A DNA stretch of 21,700 nt, taken from a virus. This document shows positions 1-20,664 of this stretch, in pieces. Each line of letters opens with the position of its first letter. Positions within the stretch are counted from its first letter, which is position 1. The stretch is taken from the IMG/VR virus record IMGVR_UViG_3300006350_000965, positions 1 to 21,700 of that record; one strand, written 5' to 3'. Under the pieces are notes generated by a model. That model was not told the DNA's origin and ran no database searches. It worked only from the letters and a program-made list of their open reading frames with translations. Made by a program: the position numbers and the translations under genes.

Positions 1-840
1 TGATACCTTTCTATTCTCTTCAATTTTATTTTTAAGATACTCAGTATCTTCTAATTTCTTATCAGGAATAACAGTAATGAAAGGTTGAGATAAATCAAGA
101 TTAGCAGTGCTTTGTTCGGATAAAACTAAACCAAGTCCAGCAGCCATACCTTCCAAACATACGAATGGATGTGCTTCTCCAGAACTTAGTAGTATCATAT
201 TAGCATAAGCCGTCAGATTGTCCATAATATCTTGCTTACTCTGCTCACCAAAGTAACAAGGATCTGTCGTATCAAAAGATGGATCTGCATTGTTACCAAT
301 GAAATCAATATTCAAACCTTTCTTCTGTAAAAATGCTTGTCTCTTTCTTGGTTCTAGTTTACCGACAACAACAGATCTATCTGGATGTAATGCTTCATCA
401 TCTATAGTGTAAGCATCAGTATCAATAGCACAAGGAAGCACTGATACATTTGTACTATCAATACCTCTTCTCACAAATTCTTTTTTTATTCTATCAGATA
501 ATGATACTATATGACTCTGAGAGTTCTTGAGTAAATCATATAAAAATACATACTGAGGTTCTGGATTCTCTAGGTATGGATAATGGCTTGTGACCATTTT
601 CTTTTTACAATTTAAGTGAGGCATTACAGTTGAGTAATGATCATAATGTAAATGAACAGCATCAAAATTTCCTGAGTTGACTCTACGTACAATATCATGC
701 AAATCCTTTGTATTAATAATTACAACCTCATCACCAATCTTCTTTAACTGATTATTATAATTCCATATAAGATGTTCAACACCACCCCATCCAGTAGGAG
801 GAATGGGCATGATTCCAGGCCCAATCAATGCTATTTTCAT
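1..840 (-). CDS. GT4-type glycosyltransferase, 3' end outside window
   Basis: The gene starts at ATG 840 and stays open to the window edge, giving 280 residues without the C-terminus. The N-terminus MKIALIGPGIMPIPPTGWGG followed by VEHLIW is the classic opening of GT-B glycosyltransferases of family 4: a nucleotide-binding beta strand, then a glycine-rich acceptor loop. Near residue 240 it carries GEAHPFVCLEGMAAG, matching the E-x7-E donor-sugar motif of that family. It would transfer a sugar from an activated nucleotide donor to a growing glycan in the cytoplasm; donor and acceptor cannot be read from sequence. Its ATG overlaps the stop of the preceding gene as ATGA, so translation is probably coupled. 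It is the last visible gene of the glycan cluster. Family is confident; specificity is unknown. Confidence 0.85.
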   Translation of the reverse strand, partial: MKIALIGPGIMPIPPTGWGGVEHLIWNYNNQLKKIGDEVVIINTKDLHDIVRRVNSGNFDAVHLHYDHYSTVMPHLNCKKKMVTSHYPYLENPEPQYVFLYDLLKNSQSHIVSLSDRIKKEFVRRGIDSTNVSVLPCAIDTDAYTIDDEALHPDRSVVVGKLEPRKRQAFLQKKGLNIDFIGNNADPSFDTTDPCYFGEQSKQDIMDNLTAYANMILLSSGEAHPFVCLEGMAAGLGLVLSEQSTANLDLSQPFITVIPDKKLEDTEYLKNKIEENRKVS

Positions 841-1658
841 TCTACAAATCCTAGTTCCTGTATGAATTCATAATCTTTATGCATGTTAGCATGATTTTCA
901 AATGGTAAAAAGAGTTCGGGATTATTTTTATACACATAAGCCATAGCAATCTGTTCATTGTTAACTAAATTATTACCAACCATTTTATTTTCAAATACAT
1001 CATGGATTAGTTCAGCAAATTTTAGCATTGGTTCTTTATAACCACCCCACAGTCCAGCCATAACCCAACTTCTATTATCCCAAAGATAATCTTCACCACA
1101 ACTATCAGAATAAACTAAATCAGGATAGTAAGACATTGATGTTTGAATGATTGCTTTATCTGGATTAGCATTTATTGCTGCTAGTCCTTGTGGAGATGGG
1201 TATGGTTTATCTAAATCAGTTTCATAAAATAACCTAGACAACCCTGCATCCATCCATAGAAAAATATCAGTATCAAAATGATTTTCTTCTATAGCTCTTT
1301 TAACCCATTGAAACTTAGAAAAAATTACAAGAGGATATAGGGGATTCCTACATTCTAATCTCTCTGGATCATCAATCTTATCCTTATATTTTTTTGAGTT
1401 AAGAATCTTATTTACTTTTTGATACAGATAGAAGTAAGGTATTTCATCTATCTCATGAGTTATAATTTTAGTAGGTCTATCTGCTCTAAACTCTTCAACA
1501 AATTTCTTTGAAGAAGGATCTACATAGACAACCATGGGTGAAGGTATGCGTAGAGTATTTGCAAACCAATTGATATACTCTTCCCATTTTCTTCCATCTC
1601 CTTTTTCTTCATCCTCTCTATCAATATCATAGAGGGCAGTAACTAAAGTAGCAGTCAT
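837..1658 (-). CDS. HtrL/YibB-family protein, putative glycosyltransferase
   Basis: This 273-residue protein opens with TATLVTALYDIDRED, contains NPLYPLVIFSKFQWVKRAI and then FLWMDAGLSR near residue 133. That layout matches the HtrL/YibB (WlaTC) family found in lipopolysaccharide and capsule gene clusters. The family is thought to have a GT-A-like fold in which the acidic motif (here the D of WMDAG) acts like a DxD metal site; this is inference, because the biochemistry is poorly known. It lies 3 nt after the radical SAM gene and overlaps the next glycosyltransferase by 4 nt. The context supports a role in glycan assembly. The family match comes from motif memory. Confidence 0.7.
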   Translation of the reverse strand: MTATLVTALYDIDREDEEKGDGRKWEEYINWFANTLRIPSPMVVYVDPSSKKFVEEFRADRPTKIITHEIDEIPYFYLYQKVNKILNSKKYKDKIDDPERLECRNPLYPLVIFSKFQWVKRAIEENHFDTDIFLWMDAGLSRLFYETDLDKPYPSPQGLAAINANPDKAIIQTSMSYYPDLVYSDSCGEDYLWDNRSWVMAGLWGGYKEPMLKFAELIHDVFENKMVGNNLVNNEQIAMAYVYKNNPELFLPFENHANMHKDYEFIQELGFVE

Positions 1659-1661
1659 AAT

Positions 1662-2567
1662 TTAGTATAGTTGTGAGGGTCTTCGCCATTGTTGCCAACT
1701 AGCGGTATCAGTATAAGTAAGTCCTTCTTCACAGTAATCGCAAAGATCGGCTCCTTCTTTTCTAATTCTTTTTACAGTTTCAGAAGCTTCATATTCATCC
1801 CAAGTATTCTCTACAAGATTACCTAAGACTTCATCAAGTCCATAGTCTTGACAACAAAGGGATAATGATCCATCAGGTAATAAAACATTCTGATATACTC
1901 TAGAACAATTACCTCTAATATTTTCCTCAGGTGGAACCTTATCTTTTTTCTCTAATAATATATTCATTGCTCTACTATTAACTTGACGTATACCAACATA
2001 GAAATGATTTGTTAAGTCAGCAAGTTCTGGATGAAGATCTCCTAGACAATGGAAGTCAAGTTTATATTGACCCCATCCATTACCAGGATTCTGTATAAGG
2101 AAATTCAACATATCATAATACTCTTCACTAAGAGCCTTAATCTTTCTTCCTTCGTGCTCATATGTTTCTACTGGAATCTTTACTCCAATCATTTCATCAA
2201 ATGAACATGAAGGTAAGTGTATATGTAATTCTCTATAATTAATATCTTTAATTTTCATCCAATCTTCTTTTTTTAATCCAACTAAAGTTGTATTTAAAAG
2301 AATACTATACCCTCTTTCAGCAGCATGTAATATCATATCAGCAGTATCTGGAGCAAGGAATGGTTCCACATATCCAGTAAAATTTAATCCAACATGTAAT
2401 GGTATAGTACTAAGACATTTTTTAAATGTCTCTAAGGTCATGATAGTATCTTTATCAGCACCTATTCTCTCTCTATATCTTTTAATTAAAGTTGATTGAG
2501 GACAATACTCACATACATTCGAGCACCCAATTCTAGGTGTAATCTCTATGTTATGTTTTAGATTCAT
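1662..2567 (-). CDS. Radical SAM protein with SPASM-like C-terminus
   Basis: The 301-residue product has the radical SAM signature C-x3-C-x2-C at C15, C19 and C22 (GCSNVCEYCPQ), which binds a 4Fe-4S cluster and S-adenosylmethionine. The C-terminus holds further cysteines near 221, 238/239, 276 and 279 (SLSLCCQDYG, LCDYCEEG). This fits a SPASM or twitch auxiliary cluster domain as seen in enzymes modifying peptides or sugars. Its substrate is not evident. It lies between a GT-D-like gene (ATGA overlap at its start) and an HtrL-type gene (3-nt gap), so a role in modifying a sugar, or a peptide linked to the glycan, is plausible but inferred. Oxygen-sensitive chemistry in a phage of an oxygenic phototroph is noteworthy. 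Confidence 0.85.
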   Translation of the reverse strand: MNLKHNIEITPRIGCSNVCEYCPQSTLIKRYRERIGADKDTIMTLETFKKCLSTIPLHVGLNFTGYVEPFLAPDTADMILHAAERGYSILLNTTLVGLKKEDWMKIKDINYRELHIHLPSCSFDEMIGVKIPVETYEHEGRKIKALSEEYYDMLNFLIQNPGNGWGQYKLDFHCLGDLHPELADLTNHFYVGIRQVNSRAMNILLEKKDKVPPEENIRGNCSRVYQNVLLPDGSLSLCCQDYGLDEVLGNLVENTWDEYEASETVKRIRKEGADLCDYCEEGLTYTDTASWQQWRRPSQLY

Positions 2568-3430
2568 TCTTCTATTCTCTCCAGAATAACTTCTTTACCG
2601 ATTCTATTATACTGAAGATAATCTACACCATTATAAATGGGGTCTTCATCAATTTGATAGTTAGTCCAATCACCAAAGTAAGGACGATTAACATCAATGA
2701 TTCCTGCAATAGCATCTATAGAAGATCCTACATCAAGAAACACTGCATCAGTATACTTCTTCAGCCTATGTAGTAGACCAGACTTAACATGTCCTATACC
2801 TACTAGGAATATTTTAGAAGTAGAATTTTTAAGTTGTTCACCAACCATTTTTTCTGTTGCATCAAGATCATCACAAGCAAACTTCTGAGGAATAGTAATG
2901 TAGTCTTCAAACTTTTCAATACCCAAATAATCTTGATACTGTTCTGCTTCTAAAATATTTTCAATAATATTTAATTTAGTATTAGCACCAAGTAAACCTA
3001 TCTTTCCTGCAAAAGTTTCTAGTAACCATTTGTTAGCAACTAGACCATACCCATACTCTGCAGGGTAATCAATCTTCCTAGCAATTACTTCTTTGAAATT
3101 AGCCATGTTCTCTGGATATATTTCACAAGTATAGTAATCACATAATTGTGCACCTCTTACAAATGCTTCATGATCTATTTCTTCATAAGGTTTTCCTAAA
3201 GCCCTCTTACCAGGTGTTGCACTCCCAACAGATTTTTTCTGTAAGAAATAATAATCTCCATCACCAAATTTATAAAACGTTTTACTCTCACCCTTATCTA
3301 CAAGATCAACTAAGAGAGATTTAAACTCTTCTAATTTTTCTTGGAATTTTGGAAACGCAGTTTTATCACCAAAACAATAATGGGAATCTAAATTTTCAGA
3401 TCCCTCAATTTTATACATGCTTAGATACAT
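2564..3430 (-). CDS. GT-D/DUF1792-like protein, putative glycosyltransferase
   Basis: I place the start at ATG 3430 (288 residues), because GGGAG lies 7 nt upstream and the ATG begins 2 nt after the preceding stop. A TTG at 3454 would add eight residues and overlap that gene. The protein has FYKFGDGDYYFLQ at 53-64 and IFLVGIGHVKSGLL then VFLDVGSSID at 207-239. These resemble the GDGE and late glycine/aspartate motifs of GT-D fold enzymes (DUF1792), which add glucose in glycoprotein and polysaccharide assembly. The resemblance is partial and from memory, so function is tentative. The gene overlaps the following radical SAM gene by 4 nt (ATGA). Confidence 0.6.
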   Translation of the reverse strand: MYLSMYKIEGSENLDSHYCFGDKTAFPKFQEKLEEFKSLLVDLVDKGESKTFYKFGDGDYYFLQKKSVGSATPGKRALGKPYEEIDHEAFVRGAQLCDYYTCEIYPENMANFKEVIARKIDYPAEYGYGLVANKWLLETFAGKIGLLGANTKLNIIENILEAEQYQDYLGIEKFEDYITIPQKFACDDLDATEKMVGEQLKNSTSKIFLVGIGHVKSGLLHRLKKYTDAVFLDVGSSIDAIAGIIDVNRPYFGDWTNYQIDEDPIYNGVDYLQYNRIGKEVILERIEE

Positions 3431-3432
3431 AG

Positions 3433-4596
3433 TTACTCCCAGAACCTCCACCAAGGTTTTTCTATTTCTACAGGTTGTGCTTTTTCTTCAAAATATTTCA
3501 AGACCCAATATACAACGTAATCAATATCCTCATCATTCATACCAGGATGACATGGTAAACTAATTAGTTTTTTCCATTCTACATTTGCTACAGGATAATC
3601 ACGTTGATTCATATCCTTAACAACATTATATAAATGGAGTGGTTTGAAATGCACACTAGTATGTATCTTCTTATCAGCAAGGTAATCTATAAGATCATCA
3701 CGCACTTCTGGATCTACTTTAGCACAGTAATACTGAACAGTTTCACTATGTGGAGGTGCTTGAATAACATCACCTAACTCTTCATTATATCTCTTCTGTA
3801 CGTGTCTTCTCCATTCTAAATTCTTAGGCAACTTTTTCATTTGCTCCAAACAAATTGCTGCTTGAAGATCAATCATATAACACTTATAACCTAATAGGTC
3901 TACTTCATAATCCCAAGAATAGCCAGGCTTTCCTGTTAGACCATCATCTTTTTTAACTCTAGAATATGTACTAGTAATTCCTAACCAAGTCATAGGAACT
4001 AACTTATCATATAACTCTTTATCATTTGTAGTAATCATACCACCATCACCACAAGGCATTGTTTTAACTGCTTGGAAAGACCAGACAGCAACATCACCCT
4101 TTGTACCTGCACCTTCTGTATAACAACTGTGTGCACAATCTTCTATAATTAATCCATCATAAAACTTACGGATCTCATCTATAGGAGCAGGAACACCTGC
4201 CTGATTTACAGCAATGATTGCTTTAGTATTAGGTTTTAAACTTTTCCTTACATCCTCTGGATCTAAACACATTGTAACTGGATCTACATCTACAATATTA
4301 GATGTACAATTATTCCATAAAGGAACAACAGCAGTAGTCATAAAAGATATAGTAGGATTAATAATATCACAATCTTTAATTCCAAGTGCTTTCAAAACTA
4401 AGTCTTGTCCACTGGTAGCACTATTAACTGCTACAGCATACTTAGCACCTACCATCTCAGCAAACTCTTTTTCAAACTGAGCAACCTTAGGGCCTTTACC
4501 CCACCAACCACTTTCAATTGATTCTCTAATAGCATTTACTTCTTCGTCTCCACCAACTGGACGAAGAACAGGTAACATGGTGTCTCTAATTTCCAT
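3433..4596 (-). CDS. DegT/DnrJ/EryC1/StrS sugar aminotransferase
   Basis: This 387-residue PLP-dependent enzyme is full length for its family. The expected catalytic residues are visible: D153 in IIEDCAHS, which pairs with the pyridine nitrogen, and K178 in SFQAVKTMPCGDGG, which forms the Schiff base. GWWGKGPKVAQFE at 31-43 is the family's N-terminal substrate loop. Such enzymes move an amino group from glutamate or glutamine to a keto-sugar nucleotide. Here the keto sugar could come from rfbB/rfbC or gmd, but which one is not shown. The ATG is 1 nt after the preceding stop. The C-terminus is Trp-rich (KPWWRFWE), which is unusual. Confidence 0.9.
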   Translation of the reverse strand: MEIRDTMLPVLRPVGGDEEVNAIRESIESGWWGKGPKVAQFEKEFAEMVGAKYAVAVNSATSGQDLVLKALGIKDCDIINPTISFMTTAVVPLWNNCTSNIVDVDPVTMCLDPEDVRKSLKPNTKAIIAVNQAGVPAPIDEIRKFYDGLIIEDCAHSCYTEGAGTKGDVAVWSFQAVKTMPCGDGGMITTNDKELYDKLVPMTWLGITSTYSRVKKDDGLTGKPGYSWDYEVDLLGYKCYMIDLQAAICLEQMKKLPKNLEWRRHVQKRYNEELGDVIQAPPHSETVQYYCAKVDPEVRDDLIDYLADKKIHTSVHFKPLHLYNVVKDMNQRDYPVANVEWKKLISLPCHPGMNDEDIDYVVYWVLKYFEEKAQPVEIEKPWWRFWE

Positions 4597-4597
4597 T

Positions 4598-5260
4598 TTA
4601 ATTTAACTTATAAAGATTATGATCTGTATCATTATTTACTGTGCCTAAAATTTCATACTTTTCAGTCATCTTAGGTAGGCCTAATTGATTCCATTTAGGT
4701 TCACTTAATATAGCACAGTTTGTAACTTTTGGCAAAACAGTAAACATTTGTTCAACCTCCTCAGGAACATGATCATTTCCATGAAAGAAATTTAAGATTG
4801 AAACACATTCAAAAACTGGTCGATCAAAGTGACCAAAGAAATCTATAAAGGTTCTAAAGTTTCCAATGTATCCATATTTCTGCTCACCATAATGATGTTC
4901 AAAAGCAACATCAGATGTTCTCACACAATCTTCTCTAGGATCTACACCTACAGAAAATATATCATTCTTATTACATAGGAAAGAGAAATGATTATTAGCA
5001 CATCCCATATCTAAATTAGATTTGATATTGTTCTTCTTAAAAAGATCAATTACTTCCATCCAAAAATCATACCTTGTGTGTTTAGCATAGGCATCTTCCT
5101 TATAAAAATCAGTAACACCTTCATCATCAAAGTGACCTACACAATTTGCATGCCATCTGATATCTTGATTATTACTATACCATCCACGTGTCTGAATGAT
5201 ATTATCATATGAATAGTCATTATAACTACTCATCATATTAAAGATAGTACTCTTTTCCAT
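4598..5260 (-). CDS. Putative class I SAM-dependent methyltransferase
   Basis: The preferred start is ATG 5260 (220 residues), which forms TAATG with the upstream stop; a TTG at 5266 would add two residues. Residues 83-90 (LDMGCANN) resemble motif I of class I methyltransferases, and VGVDPRED at 104-111 fits motif II with the acidic residue that binds the SAM ribose. The later SILNFFHG could be motif IV. The first 80 residues contain several Trp, Tyr and His and match nothing I recognise. Methylation of a sugar or lipid head is a reasonable guess from the neighbours. No Shine-Dalgarno is visible, so expression is probably by coupled re-initiation. Confidence 0.65.
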   Translation of the reverse strand: MEKSTIFNMMSSYNDYSYDNIIQTRGWYSNNQDIRWHANCVGHFDDEGVTDFYKEDAYAKHTRYDFWMEVIDLFKKNNIKSNLDMGCANNHFSFLCNKNDIFSVGVDPREDCVRTSDVAFEHHYGEQKYGYIGNFRTFIDFFGHFDRPVFECVSILNFFHGNDHVPEEVEQMFTVLPKVTNCAILSEPKWNQLGLPKMTEKYEILGTVNNDTDHNLYKLN

Positions 5261-5961
5261 TAGCAAATATGAAAGTTACTTAAGTCATTAGTTTTACCAC
5301 TTCGTTCCCATTCATTACGAACGATACCTAGCCAATCAAGTATTTCATATTGTACTTTCTTCTCATGAATAAACTCATAAAGATGTACCTCTGATGAAAT
5401 ATGTTTATCAGAAAGTTCTTGTAATCTATCAGCACTATACTGAGCATACTCTAACATATCACCAGTCTTCATAGAGAAGTATGTATCATTAAAATTATCT
5501 TTATCATTACATCTAACTGCACCATCAAAATATATGTGACAATTTTGTACGACAACCGCACCTTTAGATGCTGCACTTCTTTCAAATGAATAAGGACAAG
5601 TCCACATTCTTCTTCCAGTTACATAAGCAATGTTTTCATATTGAGGAAGGTCATCTTTGAGTTCTGCTAATGCTTCATTCAACATTAATAATTCACCACA
5701 ACCTTTATTTTTTGTACCTGCATTAGCTTCACTTCCTAATGATATAATTTCTATGTTAGAAAAATATTCTCTTATCTCAGGGTTCTTAATTTCATTAGGA
5801 TCATCAATAGTATTTTCAACCAATACCATATCATAATTACTAGGCATTATCCTTTCAAGTTGTTGAACTGTTTGATAATATTCCAGTTCTCTATAATCAC
5901 ATATAGATGGTAGAAGTTGTTCAGGCCTAATAGAACAAAATACCAACGCTAAATTTTTCAT
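5260..5961 (-). CDS. Unknown protein, possible glycosyltransferase
   Basis: The 233-residue protein begins [15 protein letters not shown]. It contains NAGTKNKGCGELLMLNEAL near residue 80 and NIAYVTGRRMW near residue 112. The NKGxGE and I-x-x-TGRR/Y pattern is seen in some poorly characterised transferases of surface-polysaccharide loci, where the TGR strand sits in a GT-A-like core. That is an analogy, not a firm assignment. It has no signal peptide or membrane segment, so it should be cytoplasmic. It overlaps fcl by 4 nt (ATGA) and its stop overlaps the methyltransferase ATG (TAATG), which ties it to the glycan pathway. Confidence 0.5.
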   Translation of the reverse strand: MKNLALVFCSIRPEQLLPSICDYRELEYYQTVQQLERIMPSNYDMVLVENTIDDPNEIKNPEIREYFSNIEIISLGSEANAGTKNKGCGELLMLNEALAELKDDLPQYENIAYVTGRRMWTCPYSFERSAASKGAVVVQNCHIYFDGAVRCNDKDNFNDTYFSMKTGDMLEYAQYSADRLQELSDKHISSEVHLYEFIHEKKVQYEILDWLGIVRNEWERSGKTNDLSNFHIC

Positions 5962-6863
5962 TTTATATAATCCTGATAAGTTGATTCAATACCGTCACGT
6001 AAACTAATAGTAGGTTTCCAACCCATTGATTTAATCTTACTTACATCAAGAACCTTACGTGGAGTACCATTAGGTTTGGATGTATCCCATTCTATTTCTT
6101 TACTTCCAACAACACTACCAACAGTTTCAGCAAGTTCTTTGATAGTTACATCTTCTCCTGTACCTACATTGATTGGTGATGCATCACTATACTGATTCAT
6201 TAAAAGATAAAGTGCTTCTGCTAAATCATCTACATGAAGAAATTCTCTCATAGCAGATCCGTCACCCCATAGAGTAACTTTATCTTCTGCTTCATGAAAC
6301 TTACGTATCATAGCAGGGAGAACATGTGAATTTTCTAGATCGTAATTATCATTTGGCCCATATAGATTTGTAGGCATTACTGATATAGCATCAAAACCAT
6401 ACTGTTGACGATATGCCTGACACATTTTAATACCTGCAATCTTAGCAGTAGAATATGCATCATTACTAGGTTCTAAAGCACCAGTCATTAGTTCTTCTTC
6501 TTTGATTGGTTGGTTAGCAAACTTAGGATAGATGCAAGATGAACCTAAGAAGATAAGTTTCTTTGCACCATAACGATAAGCACAATCTATGATGTTAGTT
6601 TGAATCATCAAGTTATCATAGATGAAGTGGGCTGGTGATGCACTATTAGCACCTATACCACCTACCTTTGCAGCAGCAAGGAAGACATATTCTGGTTGAT
6701 TAAGTCTAAAGAATTGTTCTACTCTACTCTGAACTGTTAGATCCCAGTGAGATGAAGGTGAAGAAATTATATTATAAAATCTTTTTTTCTTAAGCATTCT
6801 AACTATTGCAGATCCTACAAGTCCTGTATTACCTGCAACATAAAATTTACTATTACTGTCCAT
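5958..6863 (-). CDS. fcl: GDP-L-fucose synthase (GDP-4-keto-6-deoxymannose epimerase/reductase)
   Basis: This short-chain dehydrogenase converts GDP-4-keto-6-deoxy-D-mannose to GDP-L-fucose with NADPH. The NADP-binding loop is GNTGLVG at 11-17. The catalytic set is S108 (LGSSCIYPK), Y137 and K141 (NDAYSTAK), spaced as in the E. coli enzyme. YGPNDNYD, the conserved NLYGP region, is present. I choose ATG 6863 (301 residues), which overlaps gmd by 11 nt; a TTG at 6881 would add six residues with no better ribosome site. Together with gmd it completes GDP-fucose synthesis from GDP-mannose. Length is slightly below the usual 310-320. Confidence 0.95.
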
Positions 6864-7857
6864 AAAGTACCATGTCCTCAATTAATTCATCAAAGGTTAT
6901 TTTAGGTTCCCAACCTAATTTTTCTTTTGCTTTAGTAGGGTCTCCTAACAAAGACTCAACTTCAGCTGGTCTAAAGTATCTAGGGTTGACTTTAATGACC
7001 GTTTTCTGGGTAGTTAAATCATAACCAAATTCATCCATTCCCTCACCTCTCCACTCTATTTTAAAACCGAAGAAGGGTGCTACTTTATTAACAAAATCTT
7101 TAACAGAGTATTGTTCTCCAGTAGCGATAACATAATCATCTGGTTCATCTTGCTGAAGCATTAACCACATTGCTTCAACATAATCCTTTGCATGACCCCA
7201 ATCTCTTTTTGCATTAAGATTACCAAGTTCTAATATGCTTTGAAGTCCAACAGATATTTTTGATAGACCTTTTGAAATCTTACGAGTTACAAATGTCTCA
7301 CCTCTTCTTGGGCTCTCATGGTTAAAAAGAATACCAGTGCTGCAATGCATTCCATATGATTCACGATAATTTTTAATTATCCAATACCCATATAGTTTAG
7401 CAACACCATATGGAGAACGTGGATGGAAAGGAGTGGTTTCTGTTTGTGGTGTTGCTTGCACAAGACCATAAAGTTCTGATGTAGATGCTTGATATATTCT
7501 AACATCTTTCTCCATTCCTAGTGATCTAACTGCCTCAAGAACTCTAAGAGTTCCCATAGCATCTACCTGTCCAGTATATTCTGGTATCTCAAAAGAAACT
7601 TTTACATGACTCTGAGCACCTAGATTGTATATCTCTTGCGGTTTAACTTTTTGAATAATACTAATCAAACTAAAAGCATCAGTTAGATCACCAAAATGAA
7701 GTTTTAGTTTTGGATAGATATGATCTATTCTATCTGTATTAATTAATGAAGCACGACGAACAATTCCGTGTACCTCATATCCTTTTTCTAATAGTAGTTC
7801 AGCAAGGTAAGAACCATCCTGTCCTGTAATACCTGTTATTAAGGCAACTTTAGTCAT
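6853..7857 (-). CDS. gmd: GDP-mannose 4,6-dehydratase
   Basis: The 334-residue product carries the extended-SDR Rossmann loop GITGQDG at 9-15. Its active-site residues T126 and E128 (QASTSELYG), Y150 and K154 (SPYGVAK) match the E. coli enzyme with a constant offset of six. [16 protein letters not shown] and the C-terminal [11 protein letters not shown] segment are hallmarks of GMD. It dehydrates GDP-mannose to GDP-4-keto-6-deoxymannose using bound NADP. It overlaps rfbC by 8 nt and fcl by 11 nt. GDP-mannose itself would have to come from the host, because no manC-type nucleotidyltransferase is seen in the window. Confidence 0.97.
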
Positions 7858-8383
7858 ACTTTTTACACTCTTCGAAGAAATGTCCCCTCATATCTTTAAG
7901 AGAAAGAATAGGATCACCATCAAGTGGCCATTCTATATCTACAGAATTCCACATCAAAGTTCTTTGATGTTGTGGGTAATAATAATCAGTACATTTATAT
8001 TGAAACTCTGCAGTATCACTTAGAGTATAAAACCCATGAGCAAAACCAGGAGGAATCCAAAGTAATTGTTCTGGTCTATCTAGTACTATACCAAGAGACT
8101 TACCGAATGTCTCAGAATGTTTTCTTATATCAACAAATGCATCATATACAGCACCCTGAGTACAACGAATCAGTTTACCTTGAGGATGTTCTATTTGATA
8201 ATGAAGACCTCTTAGTACACCCTTAGAAGACTTTGAATGATTGTCTTGAACAAATTCATAGAAACCAATTTCTTTTTGAATTGCTTGTTCACTATAAGAT
8301 TCCATAAAGAATCCTCTATCATCTTCAAACCTATCTACAGTAATAAGTAAGACATCAGCCAGACTAGTTGCTTCTACTTTCAT
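7850..8383 (-). CDS. rfbC: dTDP-4-dehydrorhamnose 3,5-epimerase
   Basis: This 177-residue cupin-fold enzyme has RGFFMESY at 23-30, the active-site GVLRGLHYQ with catalytic H61, and [16 protein letters not shown], all diagnostic of RfbC/RmlC. It epimerises C3 and C5 of dTDP-4-keto-6-deoxyglucose. The start ATG lies inside the end of rfbB (20-nt overlap) and its stop overlaps the gmd ATG, so it is made from the same transcript. The usual last enzyme, the reductase rfbD, is not found downstream, so the product may be completed by a host reductase or diverted to another sugar. Confidence 0.96.
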
Positions 8384-9299
8384 ACCATTGTATTGTTTTT
8401 AATAATCCCTCCTCCAGACTATGCTTAGGAGAAAAATTTAATTCAGAGCTTATTTTACCATTACTAATAGAATATCGCAAGTCATGGCCTGGTCTATCAT
8501 CAACATATTCTATCAAATCCTCACTTGCATTCATCATTTTAATAATAGTCTTTACAAGATCGTTATTTGTAACCTCACATTCTCCACCAATATTATATTT
8601 TTCTCCTACCTTACCATTATTAAAGACATTAAGAATACCTTCACAATGATCTTCAACATAAATCCAGTCTCTTATATTCTCACCTGCACCATACACAGGT
8701 ATCTTTTTACCCTCTAATATATTAGTAATTGTTTTAGGAATTAATTTTTCTAGATGCTGTCTAGGGCCATAATTATTAGAACAATTAGTAATAATAGTTG
8801 GGAGACCATACGTATTATGATAGGCCTGTACAAAATGGTCACTTGCTGCTTTAGATGCTGAGTAAGGATTTTGAGGATCGTATGCTGTCATCTCAGTAAA
8901 GGATTGATCATACCATTTAAGAGAACCATATACCTCATCAGTAGATATGTGATGAAATCTTTCAATATCATATTTTAATGATAAGTTAAGTAAGTTAACA
9001 GTTCCATTTATATTAGTACTAATAAACTTTGAGCAATCTTTAATTGAATTATCTACATGACTTTCAGCAGCAAAATGAAAAATAGTTTTTGGTTTATATG
9101 TTTTAAAAATGTAATCACCATAATGCTCATCTATTATATTTACGTTACAAAATTCAATTGGAAGATCTTTTATATTTTCATAATCTGATGCATAACTCAG
9201 ATTATCAATGCAAACAATTTTTTCAGAGAATGAATTAACTGCTTGATGTAAAAAATTACTACCTATAAATCCTGCACCACCTGTAACAAAAATAGTCAT
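8364..9299 (-). CDS. rfbB: dTDP-glucose 4,6-dehydratase
   Basis: The 311-residue product has the NAD-binding loop GGAGFIG at 7-13. The catalytic triplet T120-D121-E122 (HHISTDEVYGS) and Y146/K150 (NPYSASKAASDH) are present, as are NCSNNYGPRQ and RDWIYVEDHC, typical of RmlB. It converts dTDP-glucose to dTDP-4-keto-6-deoxyglucose. It is shorter than most bacterial RmlB (about 340-360), mainly through compact loops, but no key residue is missing. The ATG overlaps the rfbA stop as TAATG, so translation is coupled. Confidence 0.96.
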   Translation of the reverse strand: MTIFVTGGAGFIGSNFLHQAVNSFSEKIVCIDNLSYASDYENIKDLPIEFCNVNIIDEHYGDYIFKTYKPKTIFHFAAESHVDNSIKDCSKFISTNINGTVNLLNLSLKYDIERFHHISTDEVYGSLKWYDQSFTEMTAYDPQNPYSASKAASDHFVQAYHNTYGLPTIITNCSNNYGPRQHLEKLIPKTITNILEGKKIPVYGAGENIRDWIYVEDHCEGILNVFNNGKVGEKYNIGGECEVTNNDLVKTIIKMMNASEDLIEYVDDRPGHDLRYSISNGKISSELNFSPKHSLEEGLLKTIQWYESRSN

Positions 9300-10174
9300 T
9301 AATAATCCTCAATAATACTTTCAAGGTAATCACCATACCCACTCTTAGGATATGTCTTTGCTATTTGATATAGTTCTATACCATTTATCCATCTATTTTT
9401 ATATGCAACTTCTTCTGGACAGGATACTTTATATGATTGTATTTGTTCACAATTGGCCACAAAATTAGAGGCTAAAAGAAGAGAATCAAATGTACCTGCA
9501 TCTATCCAAGTCATTGATCTGGTTAGATTCTTTACATTTAATTCGTCAGTTTCCAAATATTTTTTACAGAGATCTATAATCTCAGTCTCTCCTCTGTTAG
9601 AAGGTTTTAATTGTTTTGCATATTCAATACATTTATTATCAAAGAAATATATTCCAATCAATGCTCTATTAGATTTTGGATGTTCTGGTTTCTCCTCAAT
9701 TGATACTACATCCCCTTCATCATAACCATCAAATTCAATCACACCAAATCTTTCTGGATCTTTCACTGGATATGAAAGAATAGTTGCTCCTGTTTCTTTC
9801 TGTGCTTCTTGTAGAATAGAATCTAAATTGTTTCCAAATATAATATTATCACCCAATACCATGCATACATTATCGTCACCAATAAAATCTTCTGCGATTA
9901 CAAATGCTTCTGGTAAACCATTTGGTTTGTCTTGTATCTTATATGTTATGTTTATACCTAGACGCATTCCATTTCCAAGTAGTTTTTTAAATTGATCTAC
10001 CTGATCTTCATTTGTAATGATAAGTATATCCTTAATACCTGCAATCATTAATGTGCATAGAGGATAGTATATGAGAGGTTTATCATATACATTCATCAAC
10101 TGTTTAGATACTACTAAAGAGGATGGATGAAGACGAGTTCCACTTCCTCCAGCCAAGATAATACCTTTATACAT
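9299..10174 (-). CDS. rfbA: Glucose-1-phosphate thymidylyltransferase
   Basis: This enzyme makes dTDP-glucose from glucose-1-phosphate and dTTP. It begins [15 protein letters not shown], the nucleotide-binding signature, followed by VSKQLMNVYDKPLIYYPL. VLGDNIIFG, SIEEKPEHPKSN and MTWIDAGTFDSLL are all typical of RmlA. Two ATGs are in tandem (10177 and 10174). The second has GGGAG 7 nt upstream and is chosen, giving 291 residues; this matches family length. The start overlaps the stop of the upstream cupin gene. Products of rfbA, rfbB and rfbC act in order in the dTDP-sugar branch of the cluster. Confidence 0.97.
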   Translation of the reverse strand: MYKGIILAGGSGTRLHPSSLVVSKQLMNVYDKPLIYYPLCTLMIAGIKDILIITNEDQVDQFKKLLGNGMRLGINITYKIQDKPNGLPEAFVIAEDFIGDDNVCMVLGDNIIFGNNLDSILQEAQKETGATILSYPVKDPERFGVIEFDGYDEGDVVSIEEKPEHPKSNRALIGIYFFDNKCIEYAKQLKPSNRGETEIIDLCKKYLETDELNVKNLTRSMTWIDAGTFDSLLLASNFVANCEQIQSYKVSCPEEVAYKNRWINGIELYQIAKTYPKSGYGDYLESIIEDY

Positions 10175-10512
10175 CATGATCTCCCATAATTATCATCAAA
10201 ACGTTCTATATCATCTTCTTCAAGATAAGCACCACTTTGCACCTCAACGATTCTTAAGGGTATCTTACCACGATTTGATAGTCTATGCTTTGAACCTAAT
10301 GGTATATATGTGCTCTCATTCTCCTTTATTATAGAGGTTTTTCCGTCCACTTCAACTTGAGCAGTACCCTCTACAACTACCCAATGTTCTGCCCTATGCA
10401 AATGTTTCTGTAAAGAAAGACTTGCATTGGGCTTAACTTCTATACGTTTTACTTTATAACGATTACCTTGGTCGATAACTTCATACCAACCCCAAGGTCT
10501 TTCTTCTCTCAT
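10174..10512 (-). CDS. Stand-alone cupin, mannose-6-phosphate isomerase type II-like
   Basis: The 112-residue protein equals the C-terminal cupin domain of bifunctional ManC/AlgA enzymes. [10 protein letters not shown] at 5-14 and [20 protein letters not shown] at 32-51 are diagnostic. The likely metal ligands are Q35, H37, E42 and H76. The nucleotidyltransferase half of ManC is absent. It probably interconverts fructose-6-phosphate and mannose-6-phosphate, supplying the mannose branch that gmd and fcl use, although some free-standing homologues have other roles. Its ATG overlaps the preceding stop (ATGA). Confidence 0.85.
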
Positions 10513-11423: not shown

Positions 11424-11624
11424 TTAGTCATAAATTCCATATTGTGTTAAATCATATTCCACTTTTTCAATACCTTTATGTTGTACTTTAATAGGTTCTC
11501 CTATCTTTGCTAAGATATCAGCAGGTATTTTCTTCTTACTTATATCATAAGGTATGGGTGCGTTAGACACACATAGCCTAACACATTCCCATTCTTCCTC
11601 AGTAAGAGAATAGTTAGTCGTCAT
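11424..11624 (-). CDS. Small unknown protein
   Basis: The product is 66 residues from ATG 11624, or 68 from ATG 11630. I prefer 11624, which has GGGA about 6 nt upstream within the overlapping end of the PsbN-like gene. It contains LTEEEWECVRLCVSNAPIPYDI, then a basic stretch, and ends DLTQYGIYD. No known domain, signal or membrane segment is seen. It is the last gene of the unit started by the promoter at 12793-12821. The dyad promoter of the next unit lies directly downstream. Function unknown. Confidence 0.7.
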   Translation of the reverse strand: MTTNYSLTEEEWECVRLCVSNAPIPYDISKKKIPADILAKIGEPIKVQHKGIEKVEYDLTQYGIYD

Positions 11625-11823
11625 GATCATCCCAAGGATCTGCTAAACCTTTAGTTGAAAAGAATCCTTTATATATTCCAAACGCTGCTAACAATATAGT
11701 GATAACTGCTATTGATATTCCTAATGTAAAATTAGGATCAGCATTATAGTGTGGGATAATTGCATTACATTTAGTCCAAGTACCTGGTAAGGTATAGACT
11801 GGTGGACAAGAGAGAAAAATCAT
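11614..11823 (-). CDS. PsbN-like membrane protein, copy 1
   Basis: The 69-residue protein has an N-terminal part with two cysteines (SCPPVYTLPGTWTKCNAIIP), one transmembrane helix (about residues 33-56, LGISIAVITILLAAFGIY), and the tail KGLADPWDDHDD. The helix plus G-[IV]-Y-x-x-F and L-x-DP-[FW]-DDH-x-D tail resemble PsbN, a small thylakoid protein needed for assembly of photosystem II. PsbN is about 43-46 residues, so the Cys-containing N-terminal part is extra. A paralogue at 18571-18795 shares 54 of 65 aligned residues. The gene starts 3 nt after the preceding stop. The PsbN link is my reading of motifs, not a database result. Confidence 0.65.
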   Translation of the reverse strand: MIFLSCPPVYTLPGTWTKCNAIIPHYNADPNFTLGISIAVITILLAAFGIYKGFFSTKGLADPWDDHDD

Positions 11824-12231: not shown

Positions 12232-12386
12232 TAGATACTAGTTTCATCATCAACCAAAACTTTATGGGCCGTACCCATACCATCATATTTATCTGTATCG
12301 TAGAAACCTCCTTTGGTTCCAAAAAACAGTGTTAGTCCTACAAATGGAACACAAGTAACTAATAATATAATACCTAATTGATCCAT
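12231..12386 (-). CDS. 51-residue membrane protein, CcoS/FixS-like
   Basis: This short gene encodes MDQLGIILLVTCVPFVGLTL followed by FFGTKGGFYDTDKYDGMGTA and HKVLVDDETSI. One membrane helix is followed by a G-x-[FY]-x-D-x-D segment and a terminal h-x-L-x-DD. This resembles CcoS (FixS), the about 50-residue assembly factor of cbb3-type cytochrome oxidase, in size, topology and tail, but identity is low and I regard it as a lead. Both ends are coupled: TAATG at its start with the upstream gene and TAATG at its stop with the next. Confidence 0.7.
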   Translation of the reverse strand: MDQLGIILLVTCVPFVGLTLFFGTKGGFYDTDKYDGMGTAHKVLVDDETSI

Positions 12387-12763
12387 TATCGGCCAAATAT
12401 TTTTTGTATTGGTACTTGTTTTATCTTATCAAGTACATCAGTCTCTACTCTATCAACAACCTTATCCAATAGGTCAATATCAATCTGCATGAATGGTGGA
12501 ATGATACCAAGTAGACGAAGTAAACCATCTACAAATAAAGCAAGAGTAGTAAATCCAAGAATCATAGAGATAACCGTTGCGTCTCTATTATGTTTCTTCA
12601 TTGACTCTTCATCAATTCTTCTCGCTTCAGCAACTGCTATTTTAACTGCATGATCTATCATCCTATCGACTTCTTTTTTGGTATATGCTACTTTACGGAT
12701 TCTCTCTTCTGACATTTTTGCTCCTACGTCTGAAAGGGGGAACTCTTTAATTAACTCGACCAT
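12386..12763 (-). CDS. Membrane protein paired with PsbN-like protein, copy 1
   Basis: The 125-residue product has a charged N-terminal half (EARRIDEESMKKHNRDATVI) leading into one or two membrane segments (SMILGFTTLALFVDGLLRLL, about 66-85, then GIIPPF). Its amphipathic C-terminus is LLDKVVDRVETDVLDKIKQV and PIQKIF. It closely matches the protein at 18797-19165, with near identity from about residue 52 to the end and divergent N-termini. It is the first gene after the promoter at 12793-12821; GGAGG lies about 12 nt upstream of the ATG. The family is unknown to me; both copies occur upstream of a PsbN-like gene. Confidence 0.8.
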   Translation of the reverse strand: MVELIKEFPLSDVGAKMSEERIRKVAYTKKEVDRMIDHAVKIAVAEARRIDEESMKKHNRDATVISMILGFTTLALFVDGLLRLLGIIPPFMQIDIDLLDKVVDRVETDVLDKIKQVPIQKIFGR

Positions 12764-12792: not shown

Positions 12793-12821
12793 AGTATAGC
12801 ACCCACTTATAGGTTCGTCAA
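12793..12821 (-). promoter_or_regulatory. sigma70-type promoter
   Basis: The minus strand reads TTGACG (12821-12816), a 17-nt spacer, then TATACT (12798-12793). It lies in a 74-bp gap before ATG 12763, with a leader of about 20-25 nt containing GGAGG. It should drive the unit from 12763 down to 11424 (copy 1 of the PsbN-like module). Confidence 0.75.
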
Positions 12822-13329: not shown

Positions 13330-13983
13330 TTAACAATTCTTATTAAGATCTTCAGCCATAGTTCCACCTATCTCAGCACCTTGATTACCACCAAACATCG
13401 CAACCCAACCAGCAGCAACCCAGCCAACAAAGGGGATACCAGAGAGAGCAGGAGCAGCACTAGCACCAACTGATGTACCCACGAGCCTGCCTGTACCTTC
13501 TGCAGATCCGATTGCTTTAATACAGGCTTCGCTTTTTCGAGTGGCAGTTATGTCTGCAGCCTCCTGTTGTGTTAAACCTGGTTTACCATCTAACCACGAT
13601 CTATGATTAGATACTGAACCACCTTGGTTGATTGCACCATCCATGAAGTACTCTTCAGTAACCTGAGTTGTCTCTGTTGCTAATCCTAAGAAACCACCCT
13701 TCTCTTTAATATCCTTAGTAATGAATGCTGTCTTCGGATCATTTGCACTGTAACTGATCTTATATCCATTCTCATCTGCTGACACCACATATGAGGTGTA
13801 AGGTCCTACAGGTATGTCTAGGTTAGGTAACTTACTATCCTTTCTGTTGGCAATCATGCCAATCATACCGATATGAGAGAGACCAAGCAGTCCACCCAGA
13901 CCTAGGGCAAACCACTTGGTTAAATTTATTTTCTTCTTTGGTTTGACTTCTGTGCCAAACATCGCTTCATCCTGATCCATCAT
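13330..13983 (-). CDS. Membrane-associated protein with glycine-rich C-terminus
   Basis: I choose ATG 13983 (217 residues, MMDQDEAMFGTEV); a start 11 codons earlier would be non-ATG and overlap the small gene upstream. After a basic KPKKKINLTK comes a membrane helix (WFALGLGGLLGLSHIGMIGM, about 23-42). A long hydrophilic middle follows, and then a glycine/alanine-rich hydrophobic region (TSVGASAAPALSGIPFVGWV and GWVAMFGGNQGAEIGGTMAE) that could insert in membrane. It ends in Cys. No enzyme motif. A -10-like TATACT lies at 14005-14000 without a good -35. Confidence 0.75.
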   Translation of the reverse strand: MMDQDEAMFGTEVKPKKKINLTKWFALGLGGLLGLSHIGMIGMIANRKDSKLPNLDIPVGPYTSYVVSADENGYKISYSANDPKTAFITKDIKEKGGFLGLATETTQVTEEYFMDGAINQGGSVSNHRSWLDGKPGLTQQEAADITATRKSEACIKAIGSAEGTGRLVGTSVGASAAPALSGIPFVGWVAAGWVAMFGGNQGAEIGGTMAEDLNKNC

Positions 13984-14009
13984 GTTAGCAATTACTAACA
14001 GTATATATA

Positions 14010-14183
14010 CTACCAATCATCTTCTGAGTCCAGAGACTGCTGATACTCCATATTATTCTTACAATATGCGTGAACATCCATCTCCATTTTCTGATGAGCA
14101 CGAGTGTGAATTACTTGTATTAATCCTAGTGATCCCACAAGACACAGGTTTAAAACAGTAACAGGATGAGTAATATATTTCAA
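14010..14183 (-). CDS. 57-codon putative small membrane protein, TTG start
   Basis: An open frame from TTG 14183 to TAG 14012-14010 encodes a hydrophobic segment (VTVLNLCLVGSLGLIQVIHT) followed by a hydrophilic tail ending QQSLDSEDDW. No in-frame ATG lies before the hydrophobic segment, and no Shine-Dalgarno is seen near the TTG, so the start is uncertain. The acidic, aromatic ending and membrane helix resemble other small proteins in this window, which favours a real gene. It directly follows the terminator at 14190-14219, so its transcription is unclear. Confidence 0.45.
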   Translation of the reverse strand: MKYITHPVTVLNLCLVGSLGLIQVIHTRAHQKMEMDVHAYCKNNMEYQQSLDSEDDW

Positions 14184-16024: not shown

Positions 16025-16053
16025 ATATTAACACTATGTACTACAGTTGTCAA
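16025..16053 (-). promoter_or_regulatory. sigma70-type promoter of lipoprotein-cp12-talC
   Basis: The minus strand reads TTGACA (16053-16048), 17 nt, TAATAT (16030-16025). It overlaps the stop of the upstream 97-residue gene and would give a leader of about 50 nt before ATG 15965. Confidence 0.8.
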
Positions 16054-16343
16054 TCCCTTTGTCTCCAATCGTCACTACGTTTATTCTGAAACCAATCTGC
16101 TATGTCATCAGCACCACTAAATCCTTTCTTGTTTGACTTAGGATCTCCTAGGTCTAGGAACTTTAAACAGGAACCATCTTCATCAGTTGTCAATCTTCTT
16201 GCTTGACTCAGCATACCTCGTGCTGATGTATTCCTTTTTGATAATTTCTCTGCCCATATCATATCATCCAAACTTACTTCTTGTTCTGCAGCGATTGCTT
16301 TACAGATACCCACTAACCGTAGGCGGTATGCTGTTGATAACAT
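16050..16343 (-). CDS. Small basic protein of unknown function
   Basis: The 97-residue product has an N-terminal helical region (YRLRLVGICKAIAAEQEVSL) and a basic middle (EKLSKRNTSARGMLSQARRL). A C-terminal part DDIADWFQNKRSDDWRQRD looks like a small alpha-helical domain. No metal site, signal or membrane helix is seen. It could bind nucleic acid, judging only by charge. The next promoter overlaps its stop codon, so the unit ends here. Function not recognised. Confidence 0.75.
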   Translation of the reverse strand: MLSTAYRLRLVGICKAIAAEQEVSLDDMIWAEKLSKRNTSARGMLSQARRLTTDEDGSCLKFLDLGDPKSNKKGFSGADDIADWFQNKRSDDWRQRD

Positions 16344-17015: not shown

Positions 17016-17218
17016 TAGAATTCCTCGTTGTTGAATAGTCTTCGTTTCTCCCACGTCTGACCAGACGTAGAACCTTTACAAGGATTTATACAGGCATCAT
17101 CCTTGATATCATTACACAGTAGACCTGCAAGGTCATGTGGGCATCCTTCCTTACCTGTAGCCCAGTACAGTTGATCATCCAACCAACGTGATTGACATAC
17201 TGGACATTCTTTAATCAT
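17015..17218 (-). CDS. Small cysteine-rich zinc-ribbon-like protein
   Basis: The 67-residue product carries CPVC (C5, C8), a third Cys in EGCPHDLAGLLC (C26, C35) and C43/C47. The first four likely bind zinc. The rest is hydrophilic and ends in an acidic tail. GGAGGTATC directly before the ATG is a strong ribosome site. It overlaps the oxygenase-like gene by 8 nt. A DNA- or protein-binding role is possible but not shown. Confidence 0.75.
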   Translation of the reverse strand: MIKECPVCQSRWLDDQLYWATGKEGCPHDLAGLLCNDIKDDACINPCKGSTSGQTWEKRRLFNNEEF

Positions 17219-17780
17219 GATACCTCCATATACATTGACCTCTACCTATCTTCTCAGAATATGCTGATACTTTATCTTCTGGTCTATGATATGATCTCAA
17301 CATTATATTACCTGCTACGATCAATCTGTCAACACCCTCCTCCTTTACTGGATCAACACCATGAAGTCTCCATGGTGGGAAGGCAAAGATGTCTCCACTC
17401 TCCTGATGTGTGGGATATATCTTATTGTTATCATCGTCTATGAAGTAGAAGCAACTCTGTTTAGTTGCGTCAATGATATGTGTGAAGGATATGATCTCAT
17501 TACTAGTGAAGTGTGCATGAAGTGGGTGACTATCAGTGTCTGAGTTATACATCTGACACCACAAACTAAAATCATACTGGGATCTCTTGAACATCCCCAA
17601 GTCTGACATCATATCCTTGATGACCTCAGAATAGTAAGGAATTAATAAATCAGAGAACTTATCTCCCGATTGAAAAGAGGAATAAAATCTGGTCTTATCT
17701 AGATGATCTTCCTCTATTGCATTCTTTATCCTATCCTTCAGATCAGAAGGCATTATATAATTTGAATTCCAAATCAACAT
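17211..17780 (-). CDS. 2OG-Fe(II) oxygenase-like protein
   Basis: The 189-residue protein has DSHPLHAHFTSNEIISFTHI near residue 85 and FPPWRLHGVDPVKEEG then VDRLIVAGNIML near residue 138-162. The H-x-H, later H and distal R fit the jelly-roll 2OG-Fe(II) oxygenase group (family 5) common in T4-like cyanophages, in which the R binds 2-oxoglutarate. Iron ligands would be one or both His of HAH and the H of RLHGV; a plain HxD is not present. Substrate unknown. A GGGTAA/TTACCC hairpin lies just upstream, and no Shine-Dalgarno is visible. Confidence 0.7.
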   Translation of the reverse strand: MLIWNSNYIMPSDLKDRIKNAIEEDHLDKTRFYSSFQSGDKFSDLLIPYYSEVIKDMMSDLGMFKRSQYDFSLWCQMYNSDTDSHPLHAHFTSNEIISFTHIIDATKQSCFYFIDDDNNKIYPTHQESGDIFAFPPWRLHGVDPVKEEGVDRLIVAGNIMLRSYHRPEDKVSAYSEKIGRGQCIWRYHD

Positions 17781-18294: not shown

Positions 18295-18578
18295 ATTCCA
18301 TTCCAAAAAGTATCCGATGGTGTCTGCATGTTTCTTGATATAATATACAAACCTATGTTACATAAGAACCAGAACAAATTGGTCACCCATGCCTGTCTCC
18401 AACAGTATCTTCTGTTGCTCTGTACAATGTACATGTTTCTCTCATTCATTGACGCATCAACTGATAGAGGTCTGAACTTAAGAACTTGTTCTAATACTAG
18501 TGAGATTACAAATCCAATCGCAAAGATATAAAATAAGAGGTTTAAAAAACCTGCATTAAAAAGTAAGAAACTAATCAT
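18291..18578 (-). CDS. Small multi-pass membrane protein
   Basis: From ATG 18578 the product is 95 residues; ATG 18587 is possible but leaves no room for a ribosome site. Two hydrophobic stretches are seen: FLLFNAGFLNLLFYIFAIGF (about 3-29, running on to VISLVL) and WVTNLFWFLCNIGLYII (about 65-81), joined by a polar loop. It follows the PsbN-like copy 2 with an 8-nt overlap, in the place that the 66-residue gene holds in copy 1, but the two are unrelated. Function unknown. Confidence 0.7.
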   Translation of the reverse strand: MISFLLFNAGFLNLLFYIFAIGFVISLVLEQVLKFRPLSVDASMNERNMYIVQSNRRYCWRQAWVTNLFWFLCNIGLYIISRNMQTPSDTFWNGI

Positions 18579-18795
18579 CGTGATCATCCCAAGGGTCTGC
18601 TAACTCTTTGTTGTTAAAGAATGCTTTGTACACTCCAAAACCTGCCAGTAATACTGTGATTACTGCAACTGATATACCAAACGTCATGTTTGGATTGGCA
18701 TTGTAATGCGGTATGATTGCATTACACTTAGTCCATGTACCAGGTAGTGTGTACACTGGAGGACATGATAATAATAAGTCGCGTATAGCGTACAT
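18571..18795 (-). CDS. PsbN-like membrane protein, copy 2
   Basis: The preferred start is ATG 18795 (74 residues), with GGGAAG just upstream and only 1 nt after the preceding stop. SCPPVYTLPGTWTKCNAIIP is identical to copy 1. The membrane helix FGISVAVITVLLAGFGVYKA and tail KELADPWDDHDD carry the PsbN-like G-V-Y-x-x-F and L-x-DPWDDH-x-D pattern. PsbN assists PSII assembly and repair and is a single-helix thylakoid protein, so a role beside phage psbA is attractive. The N-terminal Cys pair segment is not part of classical PsbN. Assignment is by motif only. Confidence 0.65.
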   Translation of the reverse strand: MYAIRDLLLSCPPVYTLPGTWTKCNAIIPHYNANPNMTFGISVAVITVLLAGFGVYKAFFNNKELADPWDDHDD

Positions 18796-18796
18796 T

Positions 18797-19165
18797 TCAC
18801 TTCCCATAATTAAATATTTTTTGAATTGGTACTTGTTTAATTTTATCTATGACATCAACCTCTACTCTATCCACAATCTTATCGAGTACATCAATATCAA
18901 TGTGCATGAATGGAGGAATGATACCTAACAATCTTAGCAAACCATCTACGAATAGTGCGAGTGCGGTGAACCCTAATATCATACTGATGACAGTAGCATC
19001 ACGATTATGTTTACGCATTGATTCTTCATCAATCTTTCTTGCTTCATCAATAGCATACTTAATGAGAGCATTCACCTCTGCCTTAGTGTAAGTATCATTC
19101 CCTAAAGTTGAGAATGGAAACTCCGCAAAGACAGACTTTCTTTTTTCTTTCGTAGGTGCTTTCAT
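18797..19165 (-). CDS. Membrane protein paired with PsbN-like protein, copy 2
   Basis: The 122-residue protein has a divergent basic N-terminus (KAPTKEKRKSVFAEFP), then EARKIDEESMRKHNRDATVI and a membrane segment SMILGFTALALFVDGLLRLL. The amphipathic tail is VLDKIVDRVEVDVIDKIKQV and PIQKIF. From the EESM region onward it is nearly identical to the protein at 12386-12763. GAGGGAAG sits right before the ATG, and ATGA overlaps the 58-residue gene. The PsbN-like gene follows after 1 nt, so here the pair is tightly coupled. Confidence 0.8.
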   Translation of the reverse strand: MKAPTKEKRKSVFAEFPFSTLGNDTYTKAEVNALIKYAIDEARKIDEESMRKHNRDATVISMILGFTALALFVDGLLRLLGIIPPFMHIDIDVLDKIVDRVEVDVIDKIKQVPIQKIFNYGK

Positions 19166-19338
19166 CTTCCCTCTCTTGATCTGTTTCTAATAACAATATG
19201 ATTACCTTCAATCTTAAAGTCTAAGTAGTCTCTATGATCCCATTGTAATTTATCATATAGGTCGTTTAACTTGTTCATGTCATCCCACAGGTCAGAAGGG
19301 GTTGGTTCTCCCCAAAATGGATTGTCGTCTGGGTTCAT
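19162..19338 (-). CDS. 58-residue acidic protein
   Basis: The frame from ATG 19338 encodes NPDDNPFWGEPTPSDLWDDM, then NKLNDLYDKLQWDHRDYLDF and KIEGNHIVIRNRSREGR. It is acidic at the N-terminus and basic at the C-terminus, with no signal or membrane helix. It ends in ATGA overlap with the paired membrane protein. It is first in the unit begun by the promoter at 19399-19427, with a leader of about 54 nt. Function unknown. Confidence 0.65.
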   Translation of the reverse strand: MNPDDNPFWGEPTPSDLWDDMNKLNDLYDKLQWDHRDYLDFKIEGNHIVIRNRSREGR

Positions 19339-19370: not shown

Positions 19371-19400
19371 AAAAAAAATGAGGGGAGCATTTCCCCTCAT
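19371..19400 (-). terminator. Intrinsic terminator of psbA
   Basis: On the minus strand a 9-bp perfect stem (ATGAGGGGA with TCCCCTCAT, 5-nt loop) is followed by eight T. It lies 24 nt after the psbA stop and is the strongest terminator in the window. The -10 of another promoter overlaps its first two bases. Confidence 0.93.
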
Positions 19401-19427
19401 TATATCTTAGTTTACTAACAGTGTCAA
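19399..19427 (-). promoter_or_regulatory. Perfect sigma70 consensus promoter inside psbA end/terminator
   Basis: The minus strand reads TTGACA (19427-19422), 17 nt, TATAAT (19404-19399), a full consensus match at both hexamers. The -35 includes the psbA stop codon. Transcription should start near 19392, after the 5' arm of the psbA terminator, so that RNA would lack the stem and read through to the genes from 19338 down. Confidence 0.85.
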
Positions 19428-20512: not shown

Positions 20513-20664
20513 TAGTAAGACGTTTTTAAGTAGGGCATCAAGGGTAGATGCGAAACTTATTTCCAGTAATCCCTCACTACTGGATATGAAGACGTAATTT
20601 ATCCTCCCATAGGTCTTGGTTAGCGGGAGTTGTAATGTGTTAAAAGAAACACCTTCCGTTATTT
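20513..20664 (-). promoter_or_regulatory. psbA 5' leader
   Basis: About 150 nt separate the promoter from the psbA ATG. The leader contains a hairpin CCAGTA/TACTGG (20563-20583), a short CATC/GATG stem near 20536-20550, and a purine-rich GGGAGGATAAATTA near 20597-20610 with no ATG in reach. Long psbA leaders are targets of light-dependent control in cyanobacteria; whether this one acts so is unknown. No gene is seen in it. Confidence 0.5.

Follow-up and report, generated by a model that had tools for sequence, protein, structure and literature searches.

PsbN is among the least understood of the assembly factors of photosystem II (PSII), being important in plants and apparently dispensable in Synechocystis. 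The plastid protein is required for assembly of the PSII reaction centre and for recovery from photoinhibition, and it is oriented with its C-terminus in the stroma and a few residues in the lumen (PMC4754418; PMC4823308). PsbN may be dispensable in cyanobacteria, as additional mutation of psbN did not worsen the state of a Synechocystis psbH mutant (PMC4823308). In cyanophages, the gene was described as T4-GC163, a “possible photosystem II PsbN” shared by all Prochlorococcus myoviruses sequenced by that time (Sullivan et al. 2010, PMC3037559), and psbN ranks among the most abundant photosynthesis genes of an ocean viral data set (PMC8940887). RefSeq likewise names PsbN in phage P-TIM40, and a gene of P-TIM68 carries the note PsbN. 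The notion that PsbN is new to phages was therefore rejected, and an earlier note on the DNA studied here, which held PsbN to be unusual in cyanophages, was wrong on the gene and fair on the details described below.

T4-GC163 is the same family as phrog_8051. Records labelled T4-GC163 include P-HM2 PHM2_005, P-HM1 PHM1_009 and P-SSM4 PSSM4_007.1, with further members in P-SSM2, P-SSM7, P-RSM4 and S-SSM7; approximately 20 isolate or assembled phage genomes carry the family, and relatives are encoded by more than 500 stretches of the viral contig collection. All relatives found came from cyanophages or marine single-cell viruses, further matches being at chance level (E of 3-4).

The window, the whole 21,700-nucleotide stretch that was analyzed, comes from a marine cyanobacterial virus and carries two small genes, N1 and N2, that are derived from host PsbN. 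They share the family, the N-terminal extension and the tail type of the isolate T4-GC163 proteins. The arrangement differs: the isolates checked have one copy, located at least 8 kb from psbA, whereas two are present in the window, N2 being 0.6 kb from psbA. N1 and N2 belong to different phage PsbN sublineages, and each is accompanied by a phrog_7360 gene in a short block of genes (Table 1). Both genes were borne out with the positions and protein lengths given in the earlier note, which named no strand, and lie on the minus strand; a plus-strand reading was rejected, as its frames were full of stops. For N2, a GGAAG just 5' of the ATG at 18795 supports the 74-residue form, and this ATG lies one base past the TGA of the preceding gene; a start at the ATG at 18807, giving 78 residues, is also possible.

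Table 1. Features of the two psbN loci and the psbA region in the window
Feature	Position	Strand	Details
psbN copy N1	11614..11823	minus	69 aa; Pfam PsbN 37.4 bits, phrog_8051 E=2e-41
N1 extension (SCPPVYTLPGTWTKCNAIIPHYNADPN)	11731..11811	minus	segment as in N2
phrog_7360 copy a, upstream of N1, two small genes between	12386..12763	minus	84/127 aligned positions identical to copy b
Candidate promoter TTGACG-17-TATACT (with TG), upstream of phrog_7360 copy a and N1	12793..12821	minus	10/12 matches
psbN copy N2	18571..18795	minus	74 aa; Pfam PsbN 40.1 bits, phrog_8051 E=2e-41
N2 extension, Ser before Cys1 to N-P-N (SCPPVYTLPGTWTKCNAIIPHYNANPN)	18688..18768	minus	Cys pair C-x12-C; invariant alignment columns; Cys census
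phrog_7360 copy b (T4-GC246, called “gp7”), directly upstream of N2	18797..19165	minus	PHROG E=9e-55
DUF7191 protein, first gene of N2 unit	19162..19338	minus	Pfam PF23821 E=5e-12
Intrinsic-terminator-like hairpin after psbA	19377..19401	minus	10 pairs, then T run
Sigma-70 consensus TTGACA-17-TATAAT after psbA, candidate promoter of DUF7191-phrog_7360-psbN unit	19399..19427	minus	12/12 matches
psbA (D1), 362 aa	19424..20512	minus	ORF; 95% identical to Prochlorococcus D1
PhotoRC-II RNA element, upstream of psbA	20549..20642	minus	Rfam RF01717, 81.8 bits, gathering 39

The assignment of both genes to PsbN was right, as indicated by the Pfam match, a decoy test and a Prochlorococcus-type tail. 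N1 and N2 matched PF02468 above its gathering cut-off of 25 bits (E=2e-9 and 3e-10; model positions 2-43 and 3-43 of 43), so the proposed relation was upheld by profile search, and phrog_8051 was matched over its full length at 140.9 bits each (positions 1-69 and 2-69 of 69). The sole NCBIfam match of both was the PsbN equivalog NF009650, at 42.1 and 47.5 bits, which falls short of its equivalog cut-off of 70 bits; on these scores, the phage copies are best regarded as diverged PsbN relatives, not scored as the orthologue proper. A model built from host PsbN (n=13) gave 45.0 and 41.3 bits, compared with 4.7 bits for the next best open reading frame of the window. Among 1000 decoys with helix, spacer and tail shuffled in blocks, the maximum was 15.9 bits, and it was 26.8 bits when the DPWDDHDD tail was left intact and the helix shuffled; a generic helix with an acidic tail resembling PsbN by chance was thus ruled out. 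In BLASTP, a window protein and a Prochlorococcus PsbN, which also has the DPWDDHDD tail, were 43% identical over 44 residues.

The architecture was as first described, a single membrane helix followed by DPWDDHDD in both copies, and the PsbN signature D-P-[FW]-[DE]-[DE]-H-[DE]-D was present after the helix. AlphaFold predicted one long helix for N2 (residues 35-60), confident in its middle part. With some 30-35 residues before the helix, both proteins exceed the usual PsbN length of about 43 residues (PMC4823308), a length that is typical of cellular PsbN and no condition of PF02468. No relatives with a solved structure were found for the phage proteins.

Among 30 host PsbN sequences, tails of the DPW types (DPWDDHDD or DPWDEHDD) occurred in 20, all from Prochlorococcus, and DPWDDHDD was restricted to Prochlorococcus PsbN. 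The remaining 10 had DPF tails and came from Synechococcus, Cyanobium and other cyanobacteria, plus one Prochlorococcus sequence (L317, from the same genome as L130). Phages with DPF tails included S-SSM4, S-SSM7 and S-SSM6a, which have Synechococcus hosts, as well as P-RSM4 and P-RSM1 (both MIT9303) and P-TIM40 (NATL2A). The phage tail, DPW or DPF, resembles the type of the host. The window copies and Prochlorococcus PsbN share the helix, F-G-[VL]-[YW]-x-x-F and the L-x-DPWDDHDD tail in register, and differ before the helix, where the host protein has only a short stretch, with neither the Cys pair nor the LPGTW segment.

That N1 and N2 carry an identical N-terminal segment, SCPPVYTLPGTWTKCNAIIPHYNA, as the earlier note stated, was confirmed without a single amino-acid difference. 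Across its first 23 codons (SCPP..HYN), 9 were identical, 14 differed synonymously and none non-synonymously, whereas the helix and tail codons showed 14 synonymous and 11 non-synonymous changes. The 14 silent changes and the lack of replacements indicate that the extension is under strong purifying selection and that the copies are not recent; the extension is better conserved than the helix. It is not special to the window phage, an idea that was rejected, as the pattern [SATG]-C-P-[PNS]-x-Y-x-LPGTW-...-[KR]-C-N recurs in almost all phage members. It is not obligatory either, since the PsbN of S-SSM7, S-SSM6a and P-RSM4 starts MIIPHYN and lacks the segment.

The two cysteines of the extension were kept or missing as a pair. 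Among distinct segments, 20 had both, 9 had neither and none had one; the spacing was 12 residues in 16 of the two-Cys segments and 18 in the other 4, the longer form reflecting a six-residue insertion such as DPEKIA. The Cys-free segments were all of one type (P-SSM2, P-SSM7, single-cell viruses), so they represent one or few events, not nine. Paired presence and tolerance of loop length are as expected of a disulfide without proving one, and the cysteines may form such a bond, which could close a small loop. AlphaFold modelled the extension at low confidence (pLDDT about 50) and gave no geometric support for a disulfide. That Cys1 is instead a lipidation site is very improbable. In Cys-bearing sequences it is invariably preceded by S, A, G or T, roughly as in a lipobox, but only about 5-10 residues precede Cys1, fewer than in a lipoprotein signal peptide, and lipidation leaves the second invariant Cys and the paired absence unexplained. 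The conserved two-Cys extension, with its paired pattern, seems not to have been described before; the literature searched contained nothing on the extension of phage PsbN or on two psbN copies.

The claim that host PsbN lacks the extension held in all 30 host PsbN sequences, but a related N-terminus was found on another Prochlorococcus membrane protein, and an extension without any cellular counterpart was rejected to that extent. Against 37 host genomes, the extension profile matched one gene family only, encoding a single-helix Prochlorococcus protein of 64-67 residues (L345, L346-L354) with the N-terminus M[VF]FLSxPxxWHLxGTWSEQ. The match reached E=1e-6 in one genome and 0.02-0.04 in about 17 more, always to the same gene; phrog_8051 matched the first of these host genes at E=6e-8, and BLASTP of the host protein with the P-SSM2 protein gave a pairwise E=7e-11. 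The 20 N-terminal residues of the host protein align with the phage extension; it differs in having neither cysteines nor the DPWDDHDD tail, and it matched no Pfam or NCBIfam family at cut-off. In two genomes read, the 67-residue form lay just downstream of a gene that we take to resemble crtH. A further window gene, phrog_507 (97 residues, 16050-16343, minus), was 32% identical over 91 residues (pairwise E=8e-12) to a Prochlorococcus protein (L353:2599-2908) encoded about 0.9 kb from the look-alike gene.

The extension of P-SSM2-type phages is the same but is followed by another core, that of a second host PsbN-like family ending EHARMHELGIAHGH; the P-SSM2 core and this host protein were 60% identical over 55 residues. 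The T4-GC163 members of P-SSM2, P-SSM7 and P-TIM68 thus share the LPGTW extension with the window copies and differ in the tail, the second host family ending EHA[RK]MHELGIAHGH; P-SSM2 and P-SSM7 lack both cysteines, and P-TIM68 has both. Two Prochlorococcus genomes (G050 and G047) encode further PsbN-like proteins (L171, L173) with the tail EHARMHELGIAH, and the cores of P-SSM2, P-SSM5 and P-SSM7 resemble proteins with this tail. Prochlorococcus MIT 9201 has three PsbN-profile matches in total. The simplest inference from these alignments is that one module was placed on two host-derived cores and that the cysteines were gained in the phage line, a transfer that may have run in either direction. 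A fuller reading is tentative and rather unlikely as a whole: phage PsbN would be a modular fusion of a lumenal LPGTW segment, akin to the host look-alike, with two PsbN-type host cores; a Cys pair gained in most lineages would form a lumenal disulfide and yield a two-sided PSII assembly factor favouring phage D1, and some phages would have two diverged paralogues, one next to psbA. The likeness of the extension to another Prochlorococcus protein and the second core in P-SSM2-type phages both look unreported.

The gene order around N2 was DUF7191, phrog_7360, psbN and a gene for a 98-residue protein. The earlier note had placed N2 in the unit directly after psbA; the position stood, but the block is probably transcribed separately, since it is divided from psbA by a strong hairpin of terminator type and a sigma-70 consensus without mismatch; promoter-like matches over the region were no more frequent than in shuffled sequence, so the separate unit is put forward as a suggestion. 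The order psbA-DUF7191-phrog_7360-psbN was also found in six viral contigs (L001, L002, L010, L012, L022, L024), and phrog_7360 (T4-GC246) neighbours psbN in S-SSM7, P-SSM4 and P-SSM3 as well. A psbN copy beside psbA seems undescribed before. Two other parts of the window may be recorded here. A 2OG-Fe(II) oxygenase family protein (phrog_81; 17211-17780, minus) is encoded inside the psbA-talC region, and a large sugar-nucleotide gene block, partly common to P-SSM2, occupies 837-10512 (minus); from reading of its open reading frames and phage annotations under the match, it includes GDP-mannose dehydratase, epimerases and nucleotidyltransferase-like, aminotransferase-like and radical-SAM-like proteins.

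The gene context of psbN bears on whether PsbN likeness in the phage is ancestry only. A single-helix membrane protein could have been co-opted for a non-photosynthetic role, such as membrane remodelling, exclusion or lysis timing. Such a role might explain the recurrent linkage to phrog_7360, a protein with a hydrophobic segment and no assigned function, and the general location of psbN away from psbA (PMC7029224), as in the isolates checked. However, conservation extends to the C-terminal tail relevant to PSII, which resembles the type of the host, and all relatives found were from cyanophages or marine single-cell viruses; we consider co-option quite unlikely.

All 14 isolate or assembled psbN-bearing phage genomes checked also carried psbA. 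This, like the short distance from psbA to N2, supports the reading of phage PsbN as a PSII factor. It is also compatible with phage PsbN competing with its host counterpart, either favouring phage D1 or blocking host PSII biogenesis, discrimination then resting on the lumenal extension; the absence of the extension from host PsbN, its strong purifying selection and its conservation above that of the helix point the same way. Nevertheless, S-SSM7, S-SSM6a and P-RSM4 retain PsbN and psbA with no extension, and competition appears unlikely.

The copy number is a separate matter from gene identity. Each of the 14 isolate or assembled genomes, searched whole, had exactly one PsbN match, and the closest relatives of the window change near 13.33 kb: contig L256, which carries N1, matches 2.0-13.3 kb at up to 100%, and the matches to L001 and L016 start at 13.4 kb. 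This switch, and the finding that no contig besides the window holds both N1 and N2, would be accounted for by a chimeric assembly of two phages with one copy each. Several observations argue against a chimera, which we regard as rather unlikely. No 21-mer of the window around the switch was common to both parent types, each being shared with one of them only; the first 77 bases of L256, upstream of the same gene, match those of the N2-bearing contig L001 without a difference, as would be expected if such a genome exists; and an unrelated contig (L292) encodes, within 5.6 kb, a pair of PsbN that differ in type. Synteny with close relatives breaks at a gene for a conserved 228-residue protein (phrog_605; 13330-14016, minus), past which the gene content varies between relatives, much as at a recombination hot spot. 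In a tree of 92 distinct psbN reading frames, which is used only as a guide given its short alignment of 195 nt, N1 and N2 fell in separate groups. Two copies in one phage genome are thus likely and unproven, and two diverged psbN copies in one contig look unreported.

We consider it probable, if well short of certain, that both genes encode cyanophage PsbN (T4-GC163), a host-derived, single-helix thylakoid factor of PSII assembly or repair with a lumenal extension. Homology to PsbN leads us to expect the protein to act in PSII assembly during infection, when phage D1 is made. It would most likely help to assemble or repair PSII reaction centres with newly made D1, including the product of the phage's own psbA, and the benefit to the phage would be a continued supply of photosynthetic energy during infection. 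The conserved acidic C-terminus (L-x-DPWDDHDD) would be cytoplasmic, matching the orientation of plastid PsbN, and the segment added in the phage would sit in the lumen as an added contact or stabilizer. No expression, localization or mutant data for phage PsbN were found. A role in PSII repair is plausible.

Phage PsbN probably matters in infection, as it was universal in the Prochlorococcus myoviruses of 2010 and is abundant in ocean viromes. The extension, with its invariant residues, its paired-Cys pattern and its host look-alike, provides a concrete handle on phage PsbN.
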